This document shows positions 28,974 through 51,689 of a stretch of DNA of 64,000 bases, one piece after another. The stretch comes from Paractinoplanes ovalisporus (GTDB taxonomy: Bacteria > Actinomycetota > Actinomycetes > Mycobacteriales > Micromonosporaceae), in NCBI RefSeq assembly GCF_016834655.1, contig NZ_JAENHP010000024.1, positions 1 through 64,000 of the forward strand. Direction: 5' to 3'. Each line of letters begins with the position of its first letter. Position 1 is the stretch's first letter. A program made the translations under genes and the position numbers. The notes beneath the pieces are model-generated. The model was not told the origin of the DNA. It did not search any database and saw only the letters and a program-made list of their open reading frames with translations.

Positions 28974-30902
<1,929 letters not shown>

Positions 30903-32609: not shown

Positions 32610-33293
32610 TCAGGCGGGCTTCGGGGCGCCCAGCGCGGCCGTGATGGCCTTGCTCAGGGTGGCCACGACCAGCGCCACGCTGGGGCGGACGATCGAGTCC
32701 TCCAGGTTGCCGCCGGCCATGAAACCGGCGCCCGAGGCGATCTGCTCCAGACGCTCGTGGGCCCGGGCGACCTCGTCGGCCGGCAGCCGCAGCGCGGGCT
32801 CCATGCGGCAGGAGACCAGCAGGGTGGCCAGCGCGGCGGTGCGCTCGTCGCAGAGGGCGCCGGTGGTCAGCGCGTCGGCCAGCCGCTTGCGGATCTCGGC
32901 CTCGAAGGCCGGGTCGGTGGTCGGGTAGCGGTGCACGTGGATGACGCCCATCTGGGTCTCGTCCACGTCCTGCACCACACCGCGGGCCACCAGGTCTTCC
33001 AGCACCCGGGTGCGCAGCCGGTGGCGCAGTCGCTGCAGCCACTGGGCGGGCGTGTGCGGCTCGTCGTCGGCGGCCTTGGCCAGCACGGCGTCGGCGATGG
33101 TGTCACCGATCGGGCTGGGGTCGATCACCTTGAGGTAGCCGTCGACGTAGGCGATGCGCCCCGCCAGCGCGAGGTCGACCAGCACGGCCGCGGCCATGCC
33201 GAGGTCGAGCCCGATCCGGGAGCCGGTCGCCTTGCCGGTCTGGTCGTCGTACGCGAGGAGGAGCAGTTCCTCGGCGAGAGGCATGGAGGTCAT
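32610..33293 (-). CDS. GPP34 (GOLPH3-like) family protein
   Basis: A 227-residue protein with the GPP34 pattern: an N-terminal LAEELLLLAYDDQTGKATGSRIGLDLGMAAAVLVDLALAGRI segment and a helical remainder with RVLEDLVARGVV. The eukaryotic counterpart binds phosphatidylinositol-4-phosphate at the Golgi; the bacterial role is not known, though the family is common in actinobacteria. The ATG at 33293 is used; a second ATG lies three codons in. It diverges from the NUDIX gene and converges with the mutase gene. Confidence 0.88.
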   Translation of the reverse strand: MTSMPLAEELLLLAYDDQTGKATGSRIGLDLGMAAAVLVDLALAGRIAYVDGYLKVIDPSPIGDTIADAVLAKAADDEPHTPAQWLQRLRHRLRTRVLEDLVARGVVQDVDETQMGVIHVHRYPTTDPAFEAEIRKRLADALTTGALCDERTAALATLLVSCRMEPALRLPADEVARAHERLEQIASGAGFMAGGNLEDSIVRPSVALVVATLSKAITAALGAPKPA

Positions 33294-37779: not shown

Positions 37780-37857
37780 TCTCTTCCAGGCGCGACCATT
37801 AGGGTGTGTCGGCAGAATCACCCGTCCCATACGCCAGATTGCTTCCCGGAGGTCACC

Positions 37858-38742
37858 GTGACCAGCCAGTCCGACGAGCCCGAGGCGTCCGCGCCCGTGG
37901 CCGCGCAGTCCGAGGCCGGGCTCTCCGGGCGTGAGCTCTGGGACTCCGTCGGCGTCGAGCCGGTCGAGATCGCGCTGCCCGGCGGGGTGGCGCTCACCCT
38001 CCGGGCCTACCGCAACTCCTCGACCCTGACGCCCACCGAGGTCGTGACCGACGAGGACGACCCGTTCGAGGCCCGCAAGCGCCGCGCCGCCCAGCAGGAC
38101 GAGGACGACGAGGAAGTCATCGTCGACGAGGAGTTCCAGGCGCTGCTGGCCGAGGGCGAAGCGGACGACAAGGACAAGGACGCCAAGGCGGCCGACGAGC
38201 CCGACCCGGCCGACTTCGAGGACGACCCGGAGGAGGCGGCGGCCGAGACGGAGGACGAGGAGGTGCCCGCCTTCCTGAGCCACCAGGGCCGGTTGATCGC
38301 CTTCAAGACGCCCGAGTCGCTGATCTCCTTCATTCGTTCGGGTGCTCCCCACGATCTCGCACAAATCGACTCCTGGGACACCTTGGCCGACCGGGTACAG
38401 TCGACCGACATCGACCCGCTGCCGGAGAACCGCTACGAGCTCGACCTCGTGGTGGAAAACCTGCGCGGCGGGCACGACACGTGGGACCTGCCACTGCTCA
38501 TCGCCGCGGGCGAGGTGGCGCGTGACCTCGGTCACGCCCTCCGGCTCAAGCCGGTGATCCTGGCACTGGCGTCCGGGTCGCCGCTCGATGACCTTGACGA
38601 GTCCCTCCGCGCTGCTGAAAGCGGCGGCATGGGTGGGTTCTTCGGTCGACGCCGACTGAAGAAAATCGGGGCACAACAGGCAAGTCTCGGCTGGCGCTCG
38701 GTAATCGGCAAGATCTCTGCAGCTGTGGACTGGCGCGACTGA
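37858..38742 (+). CDS. Acidic conserved protein, unknown function
   Basis: A 294-residue soluble protein. A short N-terminal domain (about 24-65, ELWDSVGVEPVEIALPGGVALTLRAYR) is followed by a highly acidic low-complexity region (about 68-140, mainly Asp/Glu/Ala). A C-terminal domain comes next (about 140-294), containing VPAFLSHQGRLIAFKTPESLISFIRSGAPHDLAQIDSW and ending in a basic FFGRRRLKK segment. GTG at 37858 has GGAGG five bases upstream. Similar actinobacterial proteins are variously annotated, sometimes as primosomal proteins; I cannot confirm that. It sits just upstream of the degenerate IS110-like protein gene. Confidence 0.75.
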   Translation: MTSQSDEPEASAPVAAQSEAGLSGRELWDSVGVEPVEIALPGGVALTLRAYRNSSTLTPTEVVTDEDDPFEARKRRAAQQDEDDEEVIVDEEFQALLAEGEADDKDKDAKAADEPDPADFEDDPEEAAAETEDEEVPAFLSHQGRLIAFKTPESLISFIRSGAPHDLAQIDSWDTLADRVQSTDIDPLPENRYELDLVVENLRGGHDTWDLPLLIAAGEVARDLGHALRLKPVILALASGSPLDDLDESLRAAESGGMGGFFGRRRLKKIGAQQASLGWRSVIGKISAAVDWRD

Positions 38743-38807
38743 CCCCTCACCAGGGACCATCAATCCTTGGCTTACTGAAGGCTGTTCCCAGGGGAGGAGA
38801 CGACGCC

Positions 38808-41048
38808 GTGGCGCTCGTGCGCGTGTACTGCGGTCTGGCCTCGGCAGATGATTCGGTGCGGGCGGCCTCGGCCGCTCACCTGACCATCGCCGTGGTGGAT
38901 GACGCAGGACGACTGCTCGGCGTCCACGAGATCGGCGATGATCCCGGCGGCTACGCCGAGCTCGGCGCCCTGCTCGTGGAACGGACGAGTGGATTCACCG
39001 ACGCCGCGGTCGCCGCCGACAGCGACGACCACCTGGTCACCTCCCTGCTCACCGCGGCCGGCCGCCCACTCGTGGTGGCCGACGACGACACCACCGACGA
39101 CTTCGCCGAGCGGTTCGCCGACGACGACTCCGTCGAAGAGATGCAGGCGCCGCCGGCCGCCCGGCGGGCCGTCGGCCTCGCCCGGGCCTTGCAGGCCGGC
39201 GCGCTCGCCGCGGGCACCCTGCCCGTGCCGCGCGACCTGGTGAGCTACAAGCCCGTGCTGGCCGCGCACGTCGCGCTGCTCAGCGGCCGGCACGCGGCCG
39301 CCATCGCCCTGCGCGAGGTGCTCCGCGAGCTCTACCCGGCCGCGCTGCGGGCCTATCCCGACCCGTCGCACCCGCTGGCGCTCGCCGTTCTCGACGCGCT
39401 GCCCGAGCCCGGCCGGCTCACCGGTCAGGGCGAGCCGCAGCGCGTCGCCGAAGACGTCGCCCGCGAGCTCACCCGGGCCGGCTCCGGCACCGAAGACGAG
39501 ATCATCGCCGCCGTCACCGCCCTCCAGGTCGCGATCAGCGAGTCGCCCCGGCGCGGTGGGGTCAACAAGTCGCTGGCCCCGGCCGCGGGCGAGACGGTGC
39601 GTCAGGCCGTCGCCGCGGTGCGCGCCAGCGACTCCGCCTGCGCCTCCCTGATCGGCACGATCGCCGCCCGCAGCGGCCCGGCCCGCCGGGCCCGGCGGGC
39701 CCCCGAGCCGGCCCCGTTGCAGTCGGTGCCCGGCGACACCTCGCGCTTCGGCCGCCGCACCCGCCCCGAGCCGGCCTCTACCGGCACCGGCCCGGTCATC
39801 CCGCGGCCGCTCACCACGCCGCCGGTCGCGCCCGACCCGGTCATGCCGCCGCCCCTGGCGCCGCGCCCGGTCTCGCAGCCGCCCGCCGCGCCCGCGGCCG
39901 CCGCCGCGTCCCTGTTCCCCAACCGCACACCCGCCCCGGGCAATCGGCCGGTGTCGGTGCCGCCGCCCCCGCCGGGCATGACACCGATCACCCCCGGCTC
40001 GCGCCCCGCGCCGACCGGCACGACCTACCCCGCCGCGTCGGTGTCGCCGGCCGCGTCGGCGCCCTCGTCCGGCCTGCCCAACGGTGGCAGCCCGGCCGAC
40101 AGCGGCCAGCCGTTCCGGGCCACGCTCACCAACGCGGCGATCAACAGCGCCCGCGCCGAGCGTCAGCGCACGGTCATCCCGCCCCGGCCGAGCACCCGCC
40201 CGACGTCACCGGCGGCGGGCGAGGCCACCGACTACTCGCTGCCCATGCCGGCCCAGCGCCCCGGCGGTCAGGAGCCGGCCGAGCCCGGTTCGCGCGCCAA
40301 CTGGCCGCTGATGAACAGCAGCGGCAGCGACGACGCCCTGACCACGCCGGCCGCCTCCACGAGCGCCCCGCCCGCCGACGGCCGGGTCCGCCCGCCCTGG
40401 CAGGACATGCCGAAGGAGCCGCCGGCCCTGCGCCTGGTCGAGTCCCAGCTGGCCAACGGCCTCGACAAGACGGTCACCGACATGCCGCCGGTCTCCGACC
40501 CGCCGTCGCTGCGCCTGGTCGAGGGTCGCAACGGCGCCCGCCGCCCGGCGTCCCCGTCGACGACCAGCAGCAAGCTGACCGCGCTCGACCGCAGCATGAA
40601 CCCGCCGGTCCCCGCCGACAGCAACGACACCGACCTGCTGATCTTCGCGGCGGCCCGCTCGGCCTGGTTCACCGGCCACAGTGAGCAGTCCGACAAGCTC
40701 GACTGGACCAACCCGAACGACTCGGGCTGGCGCGCCGCCGAGAAGGCCTCCACCCCCGCGGTGGCCGCCGAGACCGCGGCCGGCCTGCCCAAGCGCGTGC
40801 CCCAGGCCAACCTGGTCCCGGGTTCCCCGCTGCGCGACGAGCGCCCGCTGCGCATCGTCCGCGACGCGGCGAGCATCGCCGCCCACACCACGGGCTATTT
40901 CCGCGGCTGGCGGCGCGGCCAGGAGATCGGCGGCTTCGCCATGGGTGGCCGCCCCGGCCGCGAGGCAGCCGGCGGTTGGGACTTCACCCGAGACCGCGAG
41001 GGCGCCGACGAATACCGCAACAACAACGCGGGCTACGGCTCCCGCTAG
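38808..41048 (+). CDS. Degenerate IS110-transposase-like protein with conservon-type C-terminal tail
   Basis: A 746-residue protein. Residues 1-220 recall the IS110 DEDD-transposase N-domain in order of elements (RVYCGLA...HLTIAVVDDAGRLL, then GLARALQAGALAAGTLPVP, then YKPVLAAHVALLSGRHAAAIALREVLRELYP), but the expected catalytic Asp/Glu residues are not visible. A Pro-rich disordered region (about 300-610) follows. The C-terminal SAWFTG (618), GWRAAE, AGLPKRVPQANLVPGS (658-673) and YFRGWRRGQ blocks closely match the tail of the sensor kinase at 47681 ([31 protein letters not shown]). Not flanked by inverted repeats; probably a domesticated, non-transposing signalling protein. IS110 relation is moderate confidence. 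Confidence 0.65.
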   Translation: MALVRVYCGLASADDSVRAASAAHLTIAVVDDAGRLLGVHEIGDDPGGYAELGALLVERTSGFTDAAVAADSDDHLVTSLLTAAGRPLVVADDDTTDDFAERFADDDSVEEMQAPPAARRAVGLARALQAGALAAGTLPVPRDLVSYKPVLAAHVALLSGRHAAAIALREVLRELYPAALRAYPDPSHPLALAVLDALPEPGRLTGQGEPQRVAEDVARELTRAGSGTEDEIIAAVTALQVAISESPRRGGVNKSLAPAAGETVRQAVAAVRASDSACASLIGTIAARSGPARRARRAPEPAPLQSVPGDTSRFGRRTRPEPASTGTGPVIPRPLTTPPVAPDPVMPPPLAPRPVSQPPAAPAAAAASLFPNRTPAPGNRPVSVPPPPPGMTPITPGSRPAPTGTTYPAASVSPAASAPSSGLPNGGSPADSGQPFRATLTNAAINSARAERQRTVIPPRPSTRPTSPAAGEATDYSLPMPAQRPGGQEPAEPGSRANWPLMNSSGSDDALTTPAASTSAPPADGRVRPPWQDMPKEPPALRLVESQLANGLDKTVTDMPPVSDPPSLRLVEGRNGARRPASPSTTSSKLTALDRSMNPPVPADSNDTDLLIFAAARSAWFTGHSEQSDKLDWTNPNDSGWRAAEKASTPAVAAETAAGLPKRVPQANLVPGSPLRDERPLRIVRDAASIAAHTTGYFRGWRRGQEIGGFAMGGRPGREAAGGWDFTRDREGADEYRNNNAGYGSR

Positions 41049-41743
41049 CCCGCAGCACGCTCCCGGCCCGGCCTCCGCGCTCGACGCGAACGGCCGGGCC
41101 GCTTGCTGTCCGCTTCCCCGTCCGCGCACGCCCTCGCCGCGGATTTTCCGTCCCGCGTCCGGGCCGGCAACAGGTCGAGGTAGCAAGCTGAGCCGCGCCT
41201 TTGGCGGCCGGGCCCAGCATGCAACTTGCCTCCCACGCTGGTCACCACCGCGCGGGTCACCACCACGCGAGTCACCACCGCACGGGTCCACCCTCGTCGC
41301 GGACCGCCTCGAGCTCGCAACCCCCGCACGACCGCCCACCGTGTGCGGCCCACGTCCCGCACGGCGTCCGACTTCGCGCGCGGTGAGTCCCGTGTTTGGT
41401 GCGGTCGAACTGTCATGCGCGGCCAGTCACCACCACGGATCGGTCGGACTGCGAGCTCGCCGTACTCGGACGATCCAGCAATTCGAAGGACGACGACGCC
41501 CGCGGCGAACGCCCCCACCGGCGCGACCCATCTGCGCGCGAACCGCCACCTCTCGCACGCGAACGACCCTCTCGCGAGTCACAGCCCCACGCTCGCGCGC
41601 TTCGCCCTCCCGCGCGCAGCCCACCCATCTGCCCGCACAGCCCGCGCCTGGCTGGAGACGGCACCCTTCCGGCCTGTGGCGGTGAGTCGGGCGCGGCTGG
41701 GGACGGCACCCGGCCGGACTGCGGCGGGTGGCAAGATGCGCTT
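41049..41743. other. Long repeat-bearing intergenic stretch
   Basis: A gap of about 695 bp. Frames crossing it give Arg/Pro/Ser-rich translations with no family resemblance, and I accept none. It holds a 15-bp tandem repeat (41241-41285) and an imperfect duplication: GGCTGGAGACGGCACC at 41650-41665 recurs as GGCTGGGGACGGCACC at 41695-41710, 45 bp away. The right end must hold the NUDIX promoter. Confidence 0.55.
41241..41285. repeat. 15-bp tandem repeat, three copies
   Basis: GTCACCACCGCGCGG (41241-41255), GTCACCACCACGCGA (41256-41270) and GTCACCACCGCACGG (41271-41285), followed by a decayed fourth start at 41286. Confidence 0.8.
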
Positions 41744-42169
41744 GTGTCGATCTCGGGGGAAGGCTCGGCCAAGGCTCGCGTCGTCGCGGGGCTGCTGCGG
41801 GACGGCGACCGGGTGTTGCTTTGTCACCGGTCTCCGCGGCGCCGGTGGTATCCGGACGTCTGGGATCTGCCGGGTGGGCATGTGGACCCCGGGGAAATGC
41901 CCGGATCGGCGCTTGTCCGGGAGCTTCGTGAAGAGCTGGGCATCGATGTCGCGGTGCCGTCGGGGCCGCACCTTCGCGAGGTTCATGGCGACACGTTCGA
42001 CATGCGGATCTGGCTGGTCGAAGCGTGGGTGGGGTCTCCGGTCAACGCCGCGCCGGAGGAACACGACGCCATCGCCTGGTTCGACGGGGAGGCGCTGGGA
42101 GAGCTGGCCCTGGCTCATGACGGCTACCTCGCGTTGTTCAGGGAAGTTCTGGCTGAGCGCCGCGTCTGA
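41744..42169 (+). CDS. NUDIX hydrolase
   Basis: A 141-residue protein with a full Nudix box (Gly45, Glu51, then RELREELGI, 59-67) in the context RVLLCHRSPRRRWYPDVWDLPGGHVDPGE. Substrate group unclear; the context resembles MutT-like pyrophosphohydrolases. GTG at 41744 is taken as start because the frame upstream is Pro/Arg-rich and non-conserved. No close functional link to the neighbours; the 286-bp gap after it (42170-42455) is C-rich and I recognise nothing there. Confidence 0.85.
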   Translation: MSISGEGSAKARVVAGLLRDGDRVLLCHRSPRRRWYPDVWDLPGGHVDPGEMPGSALVRELREELGIDVAVPSGPHLREVHGDTFDMRIWLVEAWVGSPVNAAPEEHDAIAWFDGEALGELALAHDGYLALFREVLAERRV

Positions 42170-42455
42170 CTCCGACCGGACACGCGCGCAGAGAGCCGCC
42201 CACCGAGGTGCGCCAAGAACGGTGCGCCACCCGGCCAGCATCCGACGCACCGCGCCATCCGGCACAAACACGCGGCCCGGCACAACACACCACCCCGCCC
42301 AACACGCCGCCCGGCACGACAGGTCATCCGAACGCCGCTGCCGCCGCACCACGTCTCCCGAGGCGGCGTCGGCGGGCGAGCGCCGGCGGAGGGATCGGGC
42401 GGGTGATCGGGGCGTTTGGCGGTCACGTCGTGGGCTCAGCGCCGACCATGGTCGG

Positions 42456-43451
42456 GTGAGCATCCCGTTTCTGGTGGCCAGCCTGATCGTGCGTGATGAG
42501 GAGTCCGAACTGGGCGGCTGCCTGGCCTCGCTCGACGGCGTGGTCGACGCCGTCCATGTGCATGACACCGGGTCGACGGATCGAACGCCTCAGATGGCCT
42601 CAGAACTCGGCGCCACCGTCACCCAAGGGCAGTGGAACGATGACTTCGGTTCGGCGCGCAACGAGGCTCTGACGGGGTGGAGCGCTCTCTGGGTGCTGAC
42701 CGTCGACGCCGACCAGCGGTACTCGGGGGATCCGGGGCGGCTGCGCAAGTTGCTGGAGTCCACCACGGCCGATGTGGTCGAGGTCGACGTCGACAACGCG
42801 CACGACGAGTTGCCGTACACGAACACCGCTGCTCATGTGCACCGCAAGGCGTCCGTACGGTGGGCCGGCCGTGTGCACGAACGCCTGGTCACCCCGGACG
42901 GCCGGTCCGCCCGCACCGTGGCGGCGCCGCGGGAGGCGATTGTGCTGCGGCACCACGGCTATGCGGAGGCGACCGTCCGGGTGGCCAAGGCCGAACGTAA
43001 TGCCGCCCTGGCCCGGCAGACCCTGGCCGAGGCGGGGAACGACCGGCCGCTGATCGCCCGTACGCTGCTCGACCTCGGCCGCAGCCTGATCGGGGCCGGG
43101 CAGCGGCAGGAAGCGGCCGACACCCTGGAGACGCTGCGCGAGCTCTTCCCGGGCACGCCGGAGTGGCTGCGAGGCACCGACTTCCTCGCCCGGCTTCTGC
43201 TGGCCACGGGCTGCGACGACGTCTGCCTGGTGCTGGTCGACCAGATGCGGGAGGCGGGAGCGTCGGGCGCCTACTGCGACTGGCTGGCCGCGCAGGCCCT
43301 GGCCCAGCTGGGCCACGTCACCGCCGCCACCCGGCTGCTCGACGGCGTCACCGAAGTGGTGGACACCTGCGGCCGCCGCCTCGACCCGCGCGCCCTCGAC
43401 GAACTGCGCAGCCTGCTGAACCGGCTGGGCCCGGCACTGACGACCAGGTAG
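42456..43451 (+). CDS. Family 2 glycosyltransferase with helical C-terminal repeats
   Basis: A 331-residue protein. The N-terminal GT-A domain (about 1-165) begins IPFLVASLIVRDEESELGGCLASL and has HDTGSTDRT and the DXD-like LTVDADQR. A helical C-terminal half (about 180-331) has TPR-like spacing. This layout matches SunS/SPBc2-like glycosyltransferases and tetratricopeptide glycosyltransferases of actinobacteria. GTG at 42456 is chosen because the conserved strand starts four residues on. Acceptor unknown. It ends 7 bp before the convergent dehydratase-VOC gene. Confidence 0.88.
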   Translation: MSIPFLVASLIVRDEESELGGCLASLDGVVDAVHVHDTGSTDRTPQMASELGATVTQGQWNDDFGSARNEALTGWSALWVLTVDADQRYSGDPGRLRKLLESTTADVVEVDVDNAHDELPYTNTAAHVHRKASVRWAGRVHERLVTPDGRSARTVAAPREAIVLRHHGYAEATVRVAKAERNAALARQTLAEAGNDRPLIARTLLDLGRSLIGAGQRQEAADTLETLRELFPGTPEWLRGTDFLARLLLATGCDDVCLVLVDQMREAGASGAYCDWLAAQALAQLGHVTAATRLLDGVTEVVDTCGRRLDPRALDELRSLLNRLGPALTTR

Positions 43452-43458
43452 AGCGGCG

Positions 43459-44109
43459 CTACAGGGCGCCGCGGGTCTGCCAGGTGCACAGGCAGACGCG
43501 GTTGCCCTCGGGGTCGGCCAGCACCCAGAACGCCGGCGCCTCGGCGTCGCTGACCAGCGTGCCGCCCGCGGCGACGGCGGCGTCGATGCGGGACTGCACC
43601 TGCGACGGGTCGATCCACACGTCGGGGTGCCAGCGCTGCCTCGGCTCCTCGCGGCCGGAGCTCTGGAACCAGATGCAGGGGTTGCGGTCGGCCGGGTCGA
43701 CGATGTCGTTGGCGCCCTCGGTGATCTCCATCGCGAGCACGGCCGCCCAGAACGGCTTCACCGTGGCCTCGGCGGGGGTGTCGAGCGCCCACTCGGAGCG
43801 GGACACGTCGTCGCTCGACAGCCGCAGGCCGCGCTCGGTGGCGAGCGACGAGATGGTCCGGGCCATCCGGACGTCGCGGGCCGTCACCCCGCCCACGTCG
43901 TGACTGGTCAGGCGGATGTCGACCGCGGGGTAGCGCAGGTTGAGGTCGGGGTGGTGGTCCGCCTGCTCGGCCGCCTCGCCGACGGCGTTCACCAGAGCCA
44001 GCCCCGTACGGAAATCTCCGGTCGTGACCCGTGTCTGCAGCCCGCCGGGCACGTAGACCCAGCCGTCCAGCTTCTCCGCCGCGATCTGCTTCGCATCGAG
44101 CTTCGTCAT
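43459..44109 (-). CDS. Pterin-4a-carbinolamine dehydratase fused to a VOC domain
   Basis: A 216-residue two-domain protein. Residues 1-95 have the dehydratase signature: HHPDLNLRY (52-60) and LTSHDVGGVTARD with His70. Residues 105-216 form a glyoxalase/bleomycin-resistance (VOC) domain ending GTLVSDAEAPAFWVLADPEGNRVCLCTW. Stand-alone dehydratases are about 100 residues and regenerate tetrahydropterin cofactors; the VOC fusion is the unusual element. ATG at 44109 is the start. The Lrp-family gene starts further upstream on the same strand, with 10 bp between. Confidence 0.87.
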   Translation of the reverse strand: MTKLDAKQIAAEKLDGWVYVPGGLQTRVTTGDFRTGLALVNAVGEAAEQADHHPDLNLRYPAVDIRLTSHDVGGVTARDVRMARTISSLATERGLRLSSDDVSRSEWALDTPAEATVKPFWAAVLAMEITEGANDIVDPADRNPCIWFQSSGREEPRQRWHPDVWIDPSQVQSRIDAAVAAGGTLVSDAEAPAFWVLADPEGNRVCLCTWQTRGAL

Positions 44110-44119
44110 GACCCCATCG

Positions 44120-44632
44120 TCACCCATCGGCGGACGGACGGATCCGGTTGTTCCGGATGTGTTCGTAGACGATCGAGGTTCGGACGTCGGCCACCTCGGG
44201 CCGCTGGGTGAGCCGGTCGATGACGAACTCGTAGAGGCTGTCGTTGTCGGGGACGGCCACATGCACGATGAAGTCGTCGGTGCCGGTCGTCACGTAGAGC
44301 CCGAGCGTGTCGGGCAGCGTGCTCACCCACTCGCGGAACGCCTCGATGTTGCGGCGTGACGGCGGCCGGATCCGGATTGCGATGAGTGCCTGCACCGGGC
44401 GCCCGATGGCCTTCAGGTCGACGTCGAGGATCGCGCCCCGGATCACACCCCGCTGGCGCAGAGCCCTCGTACGGTCGAGCGCCGTGGTGGGCGAGACGCC
44501 GACCGCAGCGGCCACCTCACGGTTGGTCTTCCGTGCATCCGACTGCAGTTCCCGCAGGATCGCCTTATCTAATTCGTCCAGCTCGGCCAAATCGGGCTCA
44601 CTTCCGAGACAAGTACGGATTGATTGCCGCAC
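44120..44632 (-). CDS. Lrp/AsnC family regulator
   Basis: A 170-residue protein with an N-terminal helix-turn-helix (LDELDKAILRELQSDARKTNREVAAAVGVSPTTALDRTRAL) and a C-terminal RAM ligand domain (IRIRPPSRRNIEAFREWVSTLPDTLGLYVTTGTDDFIVHVAVPD). Such regulators sense amino acids and usually control adjacent genes. It diverges from the DUF2000 gene with 60 bp between, so that gene and lrp itself are likely targets. GTG start at 44632. Confidence 0.93.
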   Translation of the reverse strand: MRQSIRTCLGSEPDLAELDELDKAILRELQSDARKTNREVAAAVGVSPTTALDRTRALRQRGVIRGAILDVDLKAIGRPVQALIAIRIRPPSRRNIEAFREWVSTLPDTLGLYVTTGTDDFIVHVAVPDNDSLYEFVIDRLTQRPEVADVRTSIVYEHIRNNRIRPSADG

Positions 44633-44692
44633 AACCTAACACCTGCCTAGCATTTCCTTCGTACGCCGCACTAATGCACGGAGGAAACGACG

Positions 44693-45151
44693 ATGACCGG
44701 ATTCGCCCCGGACGAGATCGACCCGGACGCCCCCACCCGCTCGGCCCGCCTCAAGTGGGTGGTGGTGGTCGACGCCGACCTGCCCGCCGGCCGGGCCGCC
44801 AACGCCGCGATCTGCACCGCCGCCGCCACCTCGCAGGCGGTCAACGGCCTGCTCGGCGACGACGCGGTGGACGCCGACGGCAACCGCCACCCGGGACTCC
44901 CCTGGGCCGGCTGCACGGTGCTCGCGGCCGATACCGAGACCCTGCGCAAGATCCGGGCCCGGGCGGCCGCGCGCCCCGACTTCTTCGTGGCCGACATGCC
45001 CGCCGCCGCCCAGCACACCCGGGTCTACCGCGAATACCTGGACACCGTCGCCGCCACCGAGGCCGAGAAGATCGACTACTACGCGGTCAGCGTCGTCGGG
45101 CCGCGCAACCCGGTCGACAAGCTGGTCGGACGCCTGCCCCTGCTCGGCTAG
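44693..45151 (+). CDS. DUF2000 family protein
   Basis: A 152-residue protein with the DUF2000 layout: KWVVVVDADLPAGRAANAAICTAAA near the N-terminus and KIDYYAVSVVGPRNPVDKLVGRLPLL at the C-terminus. From memory, the family has a peptidyl-tRNA hydrolase II-like fold but no known activity. ATG at 44693 has an excellent ribosome binding site (GGAGGA at 44680-44685). Divergent from an Lrp/AsnC regulator that probably controls it. Confidence 0.85.
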   Translation: MTGFAPDEIDPDAPTRSARLKWVVVVDADLPAGRAANAAICTAAATSQAVNGLLGDDAVDADGNRHPGLPWAGCTVLAADTETLRKIRARAAARPDFFVADMPAAAQHTRVYREYLDTVAATEAEKIDYYAVSVVGPRNPVDKLVGRLPLLG

Positions 45152-45182
45152 CCGTGTCCGGGTGATCATGGCGGCGCCGGGC

Positions 45183-46124
45183 TCAGATCGCGGCCAGGGC
45201 CTTCCCGATGTTCCACTCGGCCAGATCGAGCATCCACTGGCGGTCGGGGAAATCGGTGCCGGCGATCCGCAACGGCCCCTCGATCAGCGCGATGACCTGC
45301 GCGAACCGATAGAACTCAAGACGCGCCGGGTCGAGGGCGACCGGATCGAGTTCCCCGTACGCCTCGTCGAAGCGCAACTGGAGAAAGGCGTGCTCCCACT
45401 CGACGTCGAACCAGGTCAGGCCCTCGATGTCGATCATCACGGGCTCGCCCGCCGGGCCGATCAGCACGTGGTCGGCGCCCAGCTCACCGTGCACGAGCAC
45501 GAACTCCCGCCGGGGCCGCACCTCCGCCCGCAGGCTGTGCAGGTGCTCCTCGAGCCGGGGCCGGGCCGTGGCCAGCCGCTGGTCGCGGTCCGCCACCTTG
45601 CCGAGGTGGTTCAGCACCCGCCCGACGATCATGTCTTCCGGCGGCCGGGCCGGGGTGGTCCGCGCGGCCGGCATGCCCCACTGCTCGCCATAGGTCGTGT
45701 GCATCCGCCGGAGCGCCGCTCCCAACTCGCTAAGGGGCCGGGCCGCGGCAGCGGGGTCACGCTCCATCAACGCCTCGAGCGTCTCGCGGCCGGCGTCCTC
45801 GACCAGCACCATCTCGGGGCCGGCGACGAGGACCTCCGGTACCCGCACCCCGGCGCCGGTCAGCAGGGCCTGGTTCGTCATGAACAGCTCGGCGCCGGAG
45901 GCGTCCTGGAACGGGTCGTCGGGCACGGTCCCGGACGGCGGCCAGTAGTTCTCCGCCTCCGCCCACAGGTAGAGGACCACCGAGCGGCCGTCGTCGAGCT
46001 CCAGCCGGTAGACGCCTTTCTTGGTGCCGCCGGTGAGCCGTTGCAGGCCGGTGACCCGCCCGGCGTCGCCCCACCGACCGGCCAGCAGCCCGGACACGTC
46101 GTCAAGAGTCAGAAAGACACGCAC
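45183..46124 (-). CDS. Aminoglycoside phosphotransferase-like kinase
   Basis: A 313-residue protein with the APH-type fold: the nucleotide-binding start (VTGLQRLTGGTKKGVYRLELDDGRSVVLYLW), the catalytic loop VLVHGELGADHVLIG and the metal motif VMIDIEGLTWFDVEWE. The HGELGADH form differs slightly from the classic HGDLxxxN, as in many environmental homologues. These enzymes phosphorylate small hydroxylated molecules; resistance cannot be inferred. GTG at 46124 is chosen as start at the beginning of homology. Confidence 0.8.
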   Translation of the reverse strand: MRVFLTLDDVSGLLAGRWGDAGRVTGLQRLTGGTKKGVYRLELDDGRSVVLYLWAEAENYWPPSGTVPDDPFQDASGAELFMTNQALLTGAGVRVPEVLVAGPEMVLVEDAGRETLEALMERDPAAAARPLSELGAALRRMHTTYGEQWGMPAARTTPARPPEDMIVGRVLNHLGKVADRDQRLATARPRLEEHLHSLRAEVRPRREFVLVHGELGADHVLIGPAGEPVMIDIEGLTWFDVEWEHAFLQLRFDEAYGELDPVALDPARLEFYRFAQVIALIEGPLRIAGTDFPDRQWMLDLAEWNIGKALAAI

Positions 46125-46180
46125 GACGGTCGATGCTAGGGCTTGCGCTGCCGTGGGACCTCCGAATTCCGGACAGCACA

Positions 46181-46211
46181 AAGCCCCGCTCCGGCGTCCG
46201 GAGCGGGGCTT
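46181..46211 (-). terminator. Terminator after the conservon
   Basis: A perfect 14-bp stem, AAGCCCCGCTCCGG (46181-46194) with its complement at 46198-46211 and a 3-bp loop. It lies 10 bp past the GTPase stop and closes the minus-strand operon; it could act in both directions. Confidence 0.85.
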
Positions 46212-46221
46212 CGACCGTCAG

Positions 46222-46809
46222 TTAGGCGGGCGCTACCGCGCGGGTACGACGCATCGTCAGCACATACTCGACCAGCGAGATGAGGACGTTCTTGGTCGAC
46301 TCACGGTTGCGGGCGTCGCAGCTCACCACCGGGACGTCGCTCGAGATCGCGAGAGCGTCCCGGACGTCCTGAGCGTTGTGATACTGCATGCCGTCGAAGC
46401 AGTTTATGGCGACCAGGTAGGGCAGCCGCCGGTGCTCGAAGAAGTCGATCGCGGCGAAACAGTCGGCGAGACGCCGAGTGTCCACCATGACGACCGCACC
46501 GATCGCGCCCCGCACCAGTTCGTCCCACATGAACCAGAAACGCGTCTGGCCCGGCGTGCCGAACAGATAAAGGATCAGATCGCGATCGATGCTGATGCGG
46601 CCGAAGTCCATGGCGACGGTGGTCGTCATCTTCCCCGGAACCTGCCGGTTGTCGTCGACACCCACACCCGCCGAGGTCATGATGGCCTCGGTGGTCAGCG
46701 GGGTGATCTCCGAGACCGAACCGACCAGCGTCGTCTTACCGACGCCGAACCCGCCGGCGATCACAATCTTCGCCGACGTCACGCGCCCCGCAGCGGGACG
46801 GTGCGACAT
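46222..46809 (-). CDS. Conservon GTP-binding protein (CvnD-like)
   Basis: A 195-residue small GTPase-like protein with P-loop GGFGVGKTT, switch segment YLFGTPGQTRFWFMWDEL and NCFDG in place of a standard NKxD. This is the fourth component of actinobacterial conservons, which act downstream of a sensor kinase somewhat like eukaryotic G-protein modules. ATG at 46809 lies 1 bp past the DUF742 stop. Order kinase-roadblock-DUF742-GTPase is complete and on one transcript. Confidence 0.93.
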   Translation of the reverse strand: MSHRPAAGRVTSAKIVIAGGFGVGKTTLVGSVSEITPLTTEAIMTSAGVGVDDNRQVPGKMTTTVAMDFGRISIDRDLILYLFGTPGQTRFWFMWDELVRGAIGAVVMVDTRRLADCFAAIDFFEHRRLPYLVAINCFDGMQYHNAQDVRDALAISSDVPVVSCDARNRESTKNVLISLVEYVLTMRRTRAVAPA

Positions 46810-46810
46810 G

Positions 46811-47194
46811 TCAGAGCCTGCGAAGTCCACTCAGCACCCTTTCCAGCAGTTCCGTGCCTACCGCGTCGGTCTCGTCGTCCAGCGAGGTGGGCTCATAAAC
46901 CGCCACCAGGCCATCGGAGGCCATGTCGGCGACGATCACACGAGCCACACCGAGCGGCAGTTGCATGCGTGCGGCGATCTCGGCCAGCGACTGAACCCGG
47001 CCGCCGTCGCACATCGCCGCGATGTACTGATGCTCGCTTCCACCCTGCCCGCCACGGATGCCGGAGCGCCCGCGAACGGTTGTCTCGACCAGCGCTTCCA
47101 GCGCTATCTCAAGCTTCGGACGGGTCCGACCGCGGGTTACGGCGTACGGCCTGACCAGCGCGCCGGTCGGCTCATCGCGTTCGGGCATCGTCAC
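46811..47194 (-). CDS. DUF742 protein (CvnC-like)
   Basis: A 127-residue winged-helix-like conservon protein: LVRPYAVTRGRTRPK near the N-terminus, then the conserved EHQYIAAMCDGGRVQSLAEIAARMQLPLGVARVIVADMASDGLV. Partner of the roadblock protein and GTPase in signalling complexes; exact biochemistry unknown. GTG at 47194 has GGGG six bases upstream; the ATG two codons later is an alternative. Confidence 0.93.
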   Translation of the reverse strand: MTMPERDEPTGALVRPYAVTRGRTRPKLEIALEALVETTVRGRSGIRGGQGGSEHQYIAAMCDGGRVQSLAEIAARMQLPLGVARVIVADMASDGLVAVYEPTSLDDETDAVGTELLERVLSGLRRL

Positions 47195-47279: not shown

Positions 47280-47684
47280 TCAGCCGAGTACCCCGGCCGC
47301 CGAACGCGGAGCGGGAGTAAGTGCCTCGCCGACGCGGTCGACCAGGAGGGCCATTTCGTAACCCACCTGTCCGACGTCGCAGCTGCGAGCCGCGAGCACC
47401 GCGAAGGACGAGCCGTCCGAGATGGACATCAGGAAAAGGAACCCGTTGTCCATCTCGACCACCGTCTGCAGCACGGCGCCACCCTCGAAGCACCGAGCGG
47501 CGCCCTGAGTGAGGCTGACCAGGCCGGAGGCGATGGCTGCCAATTGATCGGCGCGGTCCCGGGGGAGGTCCCGCGAGGCCGCCAGGAGCAGACCGTCAGC
47601 GGAGACCGCGATCGCATGTGCGACGCCGGGAACGCGGTCGGCGAAGTTGGCCAGGAGCCAACCGAGATCCTGCGTAGATGTCAT
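47280..47684 (-). CDS. Roadblock/LC7 domain protein (CvnB-like)
   Basis: A 134-residue protein with the Roadblock/LC7 pattern: [35 protein letters not shown] and [20 protein letters not shown]. Roadblock proteins modulate small GTPases. The ATG at 47684 overlaps the stop of the sensor kinase gene, so the two are translationally coupled. An 85-bp gap follows before DUF742. Confidence 0.93.
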
Positions 47685-50600
47685 GCCTCATGCTCCTTGC
47701 CAGCCTGCGAGGACTGCTGCCCTCCCGGAGTCTCCTCCGGGTTGGTCGATTCTTTGGTGCGACCGCGCTGCACACCACGGTGGTACGCGGAAAGGAGACC
47801 GCGAACACCCTCGGGCGTACGACGCTCGACGGAGTTTCCGCCGCGGTCGACACCACCGGGGACGAGCTGCGCCATGGGGGTGCGCTTGGGCAGACCGGCC
47901 GTGGTCGTGGTGTCGACCTGCGCCTCCGCCGCCGCCTGAGCGGCGGTCCAGCCCTCGTCGGCCGCGGTCCGCCACGGGTTGTTCGTGGCGGCGCTGCCGT
48001 TCGGGCTGCTGCCGTTCGTCGCGGCACCGTTGGCGGCACCGACACCAACAGTAGCCGGGTCTCGTTCGCGCGACTCGGGCGAGACAGCCTGCTGCGGCAC
48101 ACCGACCGAACGGGCCGGCTCCCCGGTGGGGATCCGCTGCGAGCTGACCGGTTCATCGAGCCCGTTCGACGACGGCTTGGCCTCGGCCGGACGGGCCGTG
48201 GTGAACCAGGCCGACTCGAGCTCCCGGAAGATCGGCAGCTCCATCGTCTCGTCGGCGAACTGACCCTGCCCGCTGTCGCGCTGCCGGGCCGCGGCCTGCG
48301 CGGCGGCGATCTGCGCGGCCGCCGTGGCCTGAGCCTCGGCCGCCTGAGCCGTCGCGACCTCGTGGGCCGCCTTGGCCGCCGCGGCCGCACGCTGGGCCTC
48401 GGCCCGCTCGGCCTCGGACTGCGGGGCACCCGAGACGGGCACCGCCGACACCGGCGGGATCGGCGCGGTCTGCGGGTTGGTCGGACGCTCGACCTGGGGA
48501 CCGTCGAGGCGGTTCTCGGGCCGGTAGCGCGGAAGCTCGGCGGTCATGTCGAGCGCCGCGGCGAGACTCTCCGGAACGTGCGGGGCCTGGTTCTCGCGTT
48601 CCGGCGCGACCGGCGGCCAAGCCGGCGGAGCGGCCGAGACCGGGTTGTTGGTCGGCGGGGCCGAGACCGGGGGTTCCGATCCGGGCGGGCCCGAAACCGG
48701 GTGACCACCATAAGGCGGGGCCGACGGCACGGGCGGGGCGGAGATCGGCGGCACCGGCGGGGCCGAGACCGGCGGGACGAACGGGTTGCGGCCCTGGGTC
48801 TCGGGGTTGGCCGGGAGCTGGCGCGGGATGGTCGGGCCGAAGCCGTTGGTGTCGACGTCGCGGCCCTGGTCGTTGCGGCGCTGCGGCAGCCCGTCGGGAC
48901 CGGCGAAGCCCTGCGGCGACGACGGCTGACCCATCGGGCCGGACGGCAGCGGCGGGATCGGCTCGTTGCTGCGCGGGCCGTAGAAGCCGTTGGCGCCGTT
49001 GCCGTTGCTGCCGCCGTTGAACGAGCCGTTGGAGCCACCGAAGCCGTTGGACGGGGCGCCGGTGAGGTCGGACCAGGCCGGGACCGAGCGGCCGTTCGTG
49101 CCGAGCATGCCGCCGTTGTTCATCGGCGGGTTCGGGTCGAACGGGCGGCCGGTCGGGTAGCCACCGCGGCCACCGCTCTCGAGCGCCAGCGGCTCGGGCA
49201 TGCCCGGGCGGCCCTGCTCGTCGTAGCCGGCGCCGACCTGCATGCGGCCACCGCCGACGGCGGGCTGACCCTGGCCACCGGTGAGCACCGAGAGGGGCAG
49301 GCCGACCTCGGCCACCGTGCCGCGCTCGTTGTCGGCCGGGCGGAGCTCGACCTTGACGGCGTGCCGGTTGGCCAGCCGGGCGACCACGACCAGGCCCATC
49401 ATGCGGGAGACAGCCACGTCGACCATGGGCGGGTTGGCCAGGCGGTCGTTCAGCTCGTGCAGCTGCTCGCGGCTGATGCCGATGCCGCGGTCTTCCACGG
49501 TGAGCAGAGCGCCGTCACCCAGCCGCCGCGCCTCGACGATGACCGTCGAGTTGGGCGGGGAGAAGGCGGTCGCGTTGTCGAAGAGCTCGGCGACCAGGTG
49601 GACCATGTCGTTGACGGCGTGCGCCGCCACCTCGATGTCCCGGTCGATCATGCCGAACTCGATGCGTGTGTAGTGCTCGACCTCGGACTGGGCGGCGCGG
49701 AGCACGTCGATCAGGGCGGCCGGCTCGCGCTGCACGCGGGTCGAGTCGGCGCCGGCGAGAACCAGGAGGTTTTCGTCGTTGCGGCGCATCCGGGTGGCCA
49801 GGTGGTCGAGCTGGAAGAGCTCGGCCAGACGGTCCGGGTCTTCCTCGCCGCGCTCCAGCCGGTCGAGGTGACCGATGAGCCGGTCGACCAGGATCTGGGA
49901 ACGGCGGGCGAGGTTGACGAACATCGTCGCGACGGAGGCCCGCAGGGCGGCCTGCTCGGCGGCGGTGCGCACCGCCTCGAGGTGGACCGCGTTGAACGCC
50001 TCGGTCACCCGGCCGAACTCGTCACGGCTGCGGACCGGAAGCGGCTCGGCGATCTGGTCGGCCAGCTGGGCCGGGGTGAGCGAAGTGGACAGCTGCGGGT
50101 CACGCAGCCGGCTCACGGCGTGGGGCAGGCCGAACTGGGCGACCGAGAGGGCACCCTGGCGCAGCTCGCGCAGCGAGCGGGCCATCGACCGGGCCACCAG
50201 CCAGGCGAACAGGATCGCGAGCAGGAGCATGCCGAGCAGCACGCTGGTCTCGATGAAGACCCGGCGGTTCACGTCGTTGCGCAGGGTGGTGGCCTGGTCG
50301 ACGATCTCGGAGTCCATCTTGACCTCGACCGTGCGGAACTCCGCGCCATAGCCGGCCAGGGCGTTGTCCCACTGCGAGGTGGTGAACAGGATCCGCCGGG
50401 TGTTCGCACCCTGCAGGTCGGGCAGCGGGTTGGTGTAGTTGGTCGCGGCCCGGCCGGCGGTCGAGTTCTCGATCGCGTTGAACGCGTCGCGGTCGACGCC
50501 CGAGCCGACCGACTGGAGCGTGTTGCCGGCGAGCGTGAAGCCGAGCTGGGCCTCGAGGAACTCGGTGCGCAGGGCGACGGAGAGCTCGCGCTTGGCGATG

Positions 50601-51265
50601 ATCTTGTGACCGATGTCGCGCTGGCGGGCGACGTATTCCTTGGCGGTCGCCACCGCGGCGACGGCGCGCAGGTGGTCGCTCAGCTCGGTGTCGCTGGCGA
50701 GCTGGGCGGCGGCCGAGCGCACGGCCAGGAGGTCGTCGATCAGCTTGGTGTAGGTCTCTTCGACCGTCTGCTCGGCGCCCGGGCGGTCGTTGGCGATCTG
50801 GCTCCGCTTGGCCGGCAGGTCCTCGAGGTTGCGGTCGAGGCGCAGCAGCAGCGTGCTGACGTTGTCGGGGACGTCGTCGAGCGCGGCCTTCTGCTGGGCG
50901 TAGGGCACCTTGGCCGCGTCGACCTTGCCGTTCTCGGCACCGTAGGCCTGGGTCGCCTTGACGAAGTCGGGGCTCTTCTTGTCCTCGATCGTCGTGATCA
51001 TCATGCCGTAGGCACGTTCGTTCTGCAGGTGGTCGACCAGACCACCGGCGGCCTCCGACAGCACCGAAAGGGTGCGGGCGCGCTCCGCGTTGTTGGCTTC
51101 GTCGATGTGGTCGACCAGACCGCTGACGCCGACGATGATCGTCGCCAGGGTGGGCACCAGCATGATGAGGCCAAGCTTCGACCAGATCGGCAGGTCTCGC
51201 AGCCGATCGGCCGGGCGACGGAGACGCGACATGACGCCGGTCGCCGTCTTGGGGCGCTTGCTCAC
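47681..51265 (-). CDS. Nitrate-sensor-type histidine kinase (CvnA-like)
   Basis: A 1194-residue membrane kinase. TM1 (about 27-50), an extracytoplasmic NIT-type sensor domain (60-330), TM2 (336-358) and HAMP (359-435) come first. A putative phospho-accepting helix has His488, followed by an HATPase with N box [12 protein letters not shown] (560-571) and DRGIGIS (592-598). A long Pro/Asn-rich tail (about 665-1015) ends in conserved blocks SAWFTT (1018) and [16 protein letters not shown] (1123-1138). GTG at 51265 has AGGAGG seven bases upstream; an ATG 18 codons earlier lacks one. First gene of the conservon. Confidence 0.93.
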
Positions 51266-51689
51266 GTCACCGTCCTCCTGTTTCGGGCCCCGGCACTCGG
51301 CTCGCCGGGCGCCGCACACGGCCGACTGCCGCGTCGGGCCCCCGAGATTCCATCACGACGAGTGTCAAAGAGAAAGGGCCGTCGGACACGGACCGGTTGT
51401 GTGACGCGTGTTGCTCGATACGTCGACCGTCAATGTCACAGGCTGTGCACGTCAACTTTTCTCACTGTCACCCTGTCCGGTCGGAACGGCGCGGGGGTAC
51501 GCCGGAACGACCGCGCACGATCGTAAAGGATCGCGGCAGGAGAGACGATGTCGCGGTTGCGAACGATCGGCAAGGTGAGATGCCGGATTTCGCAGTGTTT
51601 GTAGGGACCATTCTGGCCGAACGGATGATCAGTGCCGCCAAACCGGCAATGTCGCTTGCCGGACCGCGCGTTGTAACAAGCTTGTGCCG
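51266..51689. other. Intergenic stretch upstream of the conservon
   Basis: A 424-bp gap between the adenosine deaminase stop and the sensor kinase start. It must contain the conservon promoter, and a TTGACG-like hexamer reads on the minus strand near 51430, but no matching -10 element is convincing. No coding frame or RNA gene is supported. Confidence 0.45.

Follow-up and report, generated by a model that had tools for sequence, protein, structure and literature searches.

The window described here, a 64,000-nucleotide stretch of a Paractinoplanes ovalisporus contig, contains a gene whose product couples a transposase-like N-terminal part to a C-terminal tail resembling that of a conservon sensor kinase encoded nearby. 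This combination raises the questions of where the two parts come from and what such a protein might do. We refer to the protein as IS110L, and its features and those of its neighbourhood are listed in the table below. The reading we favour, with a probability of roughly 0.6, is that IS110L is a domesticated IS110 transposase that would now serve a roadblock/Ras-like GTPase switch as a kinase-free, CvnA-like input or scaffold component; we observe homology and synteny directly and infer binding and signalling. The source genome, assembled into 62 contigs (11.4 Mb), is Actinoplanes-like, and the closest IS110L proteins come from Actinoplanes; a protein search returned, among the matches listed (120 of 1088), close relatives only. 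The gene starts with GTG. Compared as a single sequence with Pfam and NCBIfam, IS110L has no match, and a PDB search with a four-sequence IS110L profile gives chance-level matches only.

Table. Features of IS110L and of the adjoining conservon region, in window coordinates.
Feature	Position	Strand	Remarks
Upstream neighbour, acidic middle, no Pfam match	37804..38742	+	312 aa; upstream of IS110L in 76/80 named loci
Ribosome-binding-like sequence	38791..38799	+	GGGGAGGAG
IS110L, whole gene: dead IS110 half, Pro-rich linker and CvnA-type tail	38808..41048	+	746 aa
IS110L residues 1-290: RuvC-like and coiled-coil half of IS110	38808..39677	+	DEDD lost, strongly acidic
IS110L residues 291-609: Pro-rich, fast-evolving linker	39678..40634	+	22% Pro over residues 291-606; pN/pS 0.47-0.80
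IS110L residues 610-706: CvnA-type tail	40635..40925	+	LxIFxxxxSAWF / GWxAA / GLPKRxPxANLVPG / YFRGWxRG
IS110L residues 707-746: C-terminal extension	40926..41045	+	partly kept among close Actinoplanes relatives
Glycosyltransferase/TPR, between IS110L and conservon	41226-43451		
Pterin dehydratase/glyoxalase, between IS110L and conservon	43459-44262		
ORF without family, between IS110L and conservon	44636-45169		
APH-type, between IS110L and conservon	45183-46181		
CvnD, small GTPase (ATP_bind_1/Ras-like)	46222..46830	-	
CvnC, DUF742	46811..47194	-	PF05331
CvnB, roadblock/LC7	47280..47684	-	PF03259
CvnA-type sensor kinase of the neighbouring conservon	47681..51319	-	NIT, HAMP, HATPase
Tail of the CvnA-type kinase, four blocks as in IS110L	47759..48238	-	

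Profile-profile alignment (hhalign) of seven IS110L members with five true IS110 transposases gives a 99.5% match (E value 1.1e-22) over 252 columns, and the aligned region ends immediately ahead of the Tnp half. Of 45 diverse IS110L members, 15 match PF01548 at E ≤ 1 (best 2.3e-7), and the database holds precomputed PF01548 matches for two members (P0203 and P0216); PF02371, the Tnp domain with the catalytic serine, is matched by none of the 45 at the same threshold, and a PF01548 search of the source genome returns no match. The original prediction of an IS110-like N-terminal part is borne out for residues 1-290, and an unrelated domain is not indicated by these alignments, from which an IS110 fold is predicted. 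When a four-sequence profile was compared with 394 genomes of the class, three genomes of the protein's own family matched at E < 1e-119, and 21 genomes outside the family gave weak matches (best 1.3e-15); those that were read individually are mostly genuine IS110 transposases of ~400-450 aa, some of them in several copies per genome. One weak match (L031, E 8e-4) was rejected as a chance match to an antisense frame of another gene.

The active site of the recombinase has been lost in all members compared. All nine true IS110s have D, E, D and D at the four catalytic columns, and the complete set occurs in none of 212 IS110L members, which were chosen by a CG[LI] motif with the catalytic residue left free (other IS110L proteins lie outside this count). 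Column by column, the expected residue is present in 0 members at D1, 10 at E2 (186 have D there), 1 at D3 and 40 at D4; the lack of DEDD residues claimed for the window protein is thus a property of all these members. Mutation of any DEDD residue or of S241 abolishes recombination by IS621 (PMC11208158, the part of the text available), and the same part of that text reports that its coiled coil dimerises. Taken together, these alignments show that the front half of IS110L corresponds, at the level of sequence, to the RuvC and coiled-coil half of an IS110 recombinase with its active site destroyed. The Tnp half is missing, and its place is taken by a flexible, Pro-rich linker that leads to the CvnA-type tail.

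The charge of the region homologous to IS110 is also different, with a median net charge of -17 in IS110L (range -22 to -3, n=212) and of +2 in true IS110s (-4 to 4, n=9), and nucleic-acid binding is therefore less likely. This bears on the idea that IS110L still binds RNA or DNA, as with a bridge RNA, and reports to the G-protein switch. In IS621, the half that is retained here forms the dimer and contributes some of the contacts to nucleic acid (PMC11208158, available portion), and the front-half sequence is under purifying selection, but given the acidic charge, and the 65 bases between the upstream gene and IS110L in the window, too short for a bridge RNA at that place, we regard this idea as improbable. 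Our preferred reading is that IS110L gave up catalysis and probably nucleic-acid binding, and that it may keep the dimer.

Of 121 genomes in the GTDB-type family of the source genome, a group that spans both NCBI families Micromonosporaceae and Glycomycetaceae, 118 have IS110L (E ≤ 1e-5); 43 of 44 genera are represented, with a single match in 112 of the 118 positive genomes. A second look at the three negative genomes reveals an intact 531-aa member in one (G437) and the tail part at a contig end in another (G504), and none was found in the third (G430). A sample of 200 genomes of the order contains 29 genomes of the own family matching at E 5e-88 or better, and 21 genomes outside it with weaker matches only (best 2.3e-20). 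The best 80 of 198 confirmed loci presumably all belong to Micromonosporaceae or Glycomycetaceae, as judged by their names, with the taxonomy of Glycomyces and Actinoplanes looked up. Among plasmid records, whole IS110L finds a single match, a CvnA kinase of Nonomuraea, and no IS110L, and the upstream gene finds no match. Shorter second copies are seen at G464:C22:46096-47433 and on G466:C127, one of them 501 aa long and with the tail, and could be paralogues or contamination.

Comparison of the window gene with seven Actinoplanes relatives gives pN/pS values of 0.28-0.37 for the front half, 0.18-0.42 for the tail and 0.47-0.67 for the linker; with two more distant relatives the values are 0.45-0.48, 0.41-0.42 and 0.80. 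These data show that IS110L belongs to the core genes of Micromonosporaceae and Glycomycetaceae, is inherited vertically and has both of its ends under purifying selection. A recently decayed, functionless copy of an ordinary IS110, or a mis-called fusion, could account for the missing catalytic residues and for the NCBI name 'transposase' carried by most relatives, but it is hardly credible given one architecture in 118/121 genomes, fixed synteny, pN/pS of about 0.3 and a catalytic loss common to all 212 members. Barring sampling errors, distribution, fixed synteny and purifying selection rule out a decayed mobile element.

The other end of IS110L was originally said to share four blocks almost word for word, and in the same order, with the tail of the window CvnA kinase, whose gene lies 6.6 kb from the end of IS110L, as stated there. 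Block 1 (LLIFAAARSAWFTG, IS110L residues 610-623) has its counterpart at kinase residues 1028-1041, block 2 is GWRAA (640-644) in IS110L and GWTAA (1123-1127) in the kinase, block 3 (AGLPKRVPQANLVPGS, 658-673) corresponds to kinase residues 1141-1156, and block 4 is YFRGWRRGQ (697-705) and YHRGVQRGR (1179-1187), respectively. The order is equal, and BLASTP of the two whole proteins gives 38% identity over 73 columns (E 4e-7). The likeness of the blocks holds, but the wording is slightly too strong, as 12 of 16 residues are identical in block 3 and 5 of 9 in block 4 (by eye), and blocks 1 and 2 are much further apart in the kinase than in IS110L. Both tails follow the Pro-rich region that had been described, with 22% Pro in IS110L and 18% in the window kinase.

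We constructed an HMM from IS110L tails only, using 37 representative tails out of 207. It recognises the window kinase at E 2.5e-14 and 116 of 119 kinase ORFs of the test set at E ≤ 1e-3, a count in which a gene may figure twice where fetched stretches partly overlap. Four further ORFs are matched, comprising three broken kinase-type ends and one fragment of an IS110L relative. None of 1001 shuffled sequences is matched, and the sampled tails are those of CvnA kinases, which rules out a generic low-complexity tail.

In the source genome, the tail profile has four strong places, namely IS110L and three CvnA-type kinases, and the tail is present in 51 of 148 genomes drawn from the class. The class search yielded 94 rows, of which four are the places in the source genome, one is a relative in G095 and one is a duplicate; the other 88 places were examined. 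A CvnA kinase domain is present at 85 of these, and the remaining three are cut or split kinase-type ends rather than unrelated proteins: fragments at contig ends (L139, L158) and a 451-aa frame with CvnB, C and D behind it (L193), which is probably a split kinase. Collecting the owners of the tail motif, as had been suggested, shows that, within this sample, the owners are CvnA kinases and a single non-kinase family, IS110L. Searching a protein database with an alignment of five divergent IS110L members, which is limited to proteins that share words and are similar in length, returned 99 proteins, 80 of them of the IS110L family and 19 with a histidine-kinase ATPase domain. The 80 include P0232, a predicted 609-aa protein on a 1998-base metagenome contig with a caspase domain, the IS110L tail, a second CvnA-like tail and DivIVA, which is probably an assembly chimera. 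G131, a genome of another family, has eight tail places, several of them on the same contigs (L137-L140, L143, L155, L205, L218).

At 86 of the 88 places outside IS110L, a roadblock gene is next on the same strand, with a median gap of 12 bases and 81 of them within 150; a roadblock directly downstream was not detected at L139 (G131:C119) and L194 (G055:C19). For IS110L itself we compared 38 loci, which are 40 fetched stretches minus three non-members (two conservons of the source genome and one true IS110) plus the window; the stretches were fetched for variety, so that genera divergent by profile score are over-represented in the counts that follow. An own roadblock gene lies directly downstream of IS110L on the same strand (-21 to +110 bases) in 18 of the 38, the window not being among them, and a convergent conservon with its GTPase nearest lies 43 to 5180 bases from the IS110L end in 31. 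Eleven loci have both, 20 have the conservon only, seven have the roadblock only, and none has neither. A complete convergent conservon is present at 20/20 loci without an own roadblock (window included) and at 11/18 with one (Fisher p 0.0025, kinship ignored). The recruitment into conservon signalling that was originally proposed is supported by this genomic arrangement.

When 133 roadblocks are placed in a tree, the 18 own roadblocks group as a single clade (support 1.0). A profile of this dedicated type scores at least 210 bits in 3/3 control genomes, and a genome-wide search with it finds the type absent in 12/12 genomes without an adjoining copy, where the facing conservon in each case supplies, with its CvnB, the best roadblock (110-117 bits); in these 12 we can rule out that the dedicated roadblock has moved to another place. 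Among the 80 named loci (best 80 of 198 confirmed), where flanks extend at most 3 kb, 26 have an own roadblock and 47 have a convergent CvnD within the flank. The own-roadblock taxa are Glycomyces (21/21), Stackebrandtia (2/2), Phytomonospora (1), Actinocatenispora (1) and one Micromonosporaceae MAG.

With kinase and dead-transposase fronts alike, a tail gene is nearly always followed directly by a roadblock gene, which makes the tail the best candidate for a roadblock-docking element. We propose that through it IS110L docks on a CvnB-type roadblock protein, which regulates the Ras-like GTPase CvnD, and that the dead RuvC/coiled-coil half would no longer be a DNA enzyme but would substitute for the sensor-kinase half as a dimerising input or scaffold domain. 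The dedicated adjoining roadblock would be the partner in Glycomyces, Stackebrandtia and other divergent genera; in Actinoplanes, Micromonospora and their kin without an own roadblock it would be the CvnB of the facing conservon, for which IS110L may compete or cooperate with the kinase tail. According to the available text of PMC8510531, citing Komatsu et al., CvnA9 binds CvnB9 and CvnC9, and a GEF role is argued there for CvnB8; PMC13343842, in its available part, places CvnB between CvnA/CvnF and CvnC/CvnD and notes a reported GAP role of MfpD. Against the model, four genes and 5.2 kb separate IS110L from the nearest conservon gene (the GTPase) in the window, and 7/38 loci show no conservon within the fetched stretch, though all seven have their own roadblock. 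The equal distance of IS110L tails to facing and to other kinases, described below, and the missing Pfam, NCBIfam and PDB matches noted above also weigh against it.

Another partner could drive IS110L, or the tail may serve localisation. In the latter case the tail would be a tag for localisation or scaffolding, such as an adaptor to the membrane, the pole or the division site, the task of IS110L would lie outside G-protein signalling and the conservon synteny would be historical. In kinases and IS110L alike the tail comes after a long linker that looks disordered; this fits such a tag, as do the seven loci without a conservon in the fetched stretch and the fact that the literature examined, as far as its text was available, names no binding partner of the tail. 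The regular succession of tail and roadblock genes (86/88), and the dedicated roadblock at 18/38 IS110L loci, speak against it, and we consider it rather unlikely.

Returning to docking on a roadblock, the likely origin of IS110L would be the joining of an IS110 copy to the linker-and-tail end of a cvnA ahead of its cvnB, in an ancestor of the two families. This direction is the parsimonious one, since the kinase tail is spread over the class and the fusion is found in one family. Tail trees say little about the donor, because they hold too little signal, with a clade of IS110L tails having only 0.37 support. That the IS110L tail was recently copied from the facing kinase is ruled out, as facing kinases are no closer than others (mean identity 0.37 to each group); the kinase closest to the window IS110L tail (identity 0.52) belongs to another family. 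We also offer, tentatively and at somewhat less than even odds, a wider version in which IS110L and its roadblock make up an input module for G-protein signalling that works without a kinase. In this version a dead bridge-RNA recombinase would have replaced the sensor kinase by joining the tail end of a cvnA gene and kept that tail for docking on the roadblock; in Actinoplanes and Micromonospora the own roadblock would later have been lost and IS110L connected to the facing conservon. The phylum's unexplained CvnA tail would then be a general docking element between inputs and roadblocks.

The IS110 transposases, or bridge-RNA recombinases (PF01548 and PF02371; IS621), are homologous to IS110L over its residues 1-290, but IS110L lacks DEDD and the Tnp half, is acidic and has the kinase tail. 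Unlike the mobile, often multi-copy IS110 elements, it behaves as a core chromosomal gene with fixed neighbours and one match in 112/118 genomes. The Piv invertase is an IS110-like enzyme in a host role that requires the DEDD motif; IS110L resembles it as an IS110-type protein in a host role, but Piv has kept DEDD and IS110L has lost it.

CvnA kinases have a like Pro-rich linker and the four-block C-terminal tail, which was defined in this analysis, and cvnA lies directly upstream of cvnB much as IS110L lies directly upstream of a roadblock gene in 18/38 loci, though not in the window. In contrast to CvnA, IS110L has an IS110-derived front and no cvnC or cvnD of its own, and Pfam detects no NIT, HAMP or HATPase domain in the window protein or in 45 members at E ≤ 1. 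CvnE (a cytochrome P450) and CvnF (GAF) are, like IS110L, extra non-kinase proteins associated with a conservon, with a plausible role on the input side, but IS110L lies outside the cvnA-D operon, either convergent to the conservon or in a two-gene unit with a roadblock, and has no P450 or GAF domain by Pfam (window protein and 45 members). PMC13343842 (available part) describes CvnF8 as a protein that binds the kinase itself.

A literature search gave no title describing IS110L or the CvnA tail, within a coverage that excludes most subscription papers and leaves novelty unproven. PMC13343842 does not mention C-terminal, tail, disordered, proline or transposase, and the available text of PMC8510531 does not mention C-terminal, proline, transposase or IS110. 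Conservon biology has yet to explain by what path CvnA signals to the roadblock and GTPase (PMC13343842, in the part available), and a non-kinase protein that shares with CvnA only the tail and the roadblock neighbour marks out the tail as a docking candidate. IS110L is a further clear example of how a bacterial transposase has become a host protein that is ancient and conserved but no longer catalytic, and probably hundreds of core genes in Micromonosporaceae and Glycomycetaceae genomes are misnamed 'transposase'.

Further to the left in the window are a rightwards-transcribed gene for a Ser/Thr protein kinase with a PsbP-like C-terminal domain (28974-30902) and a leftwards-transcribed GPP34 (Golgi phosphoprotein 3-like) gene (32610-33293).
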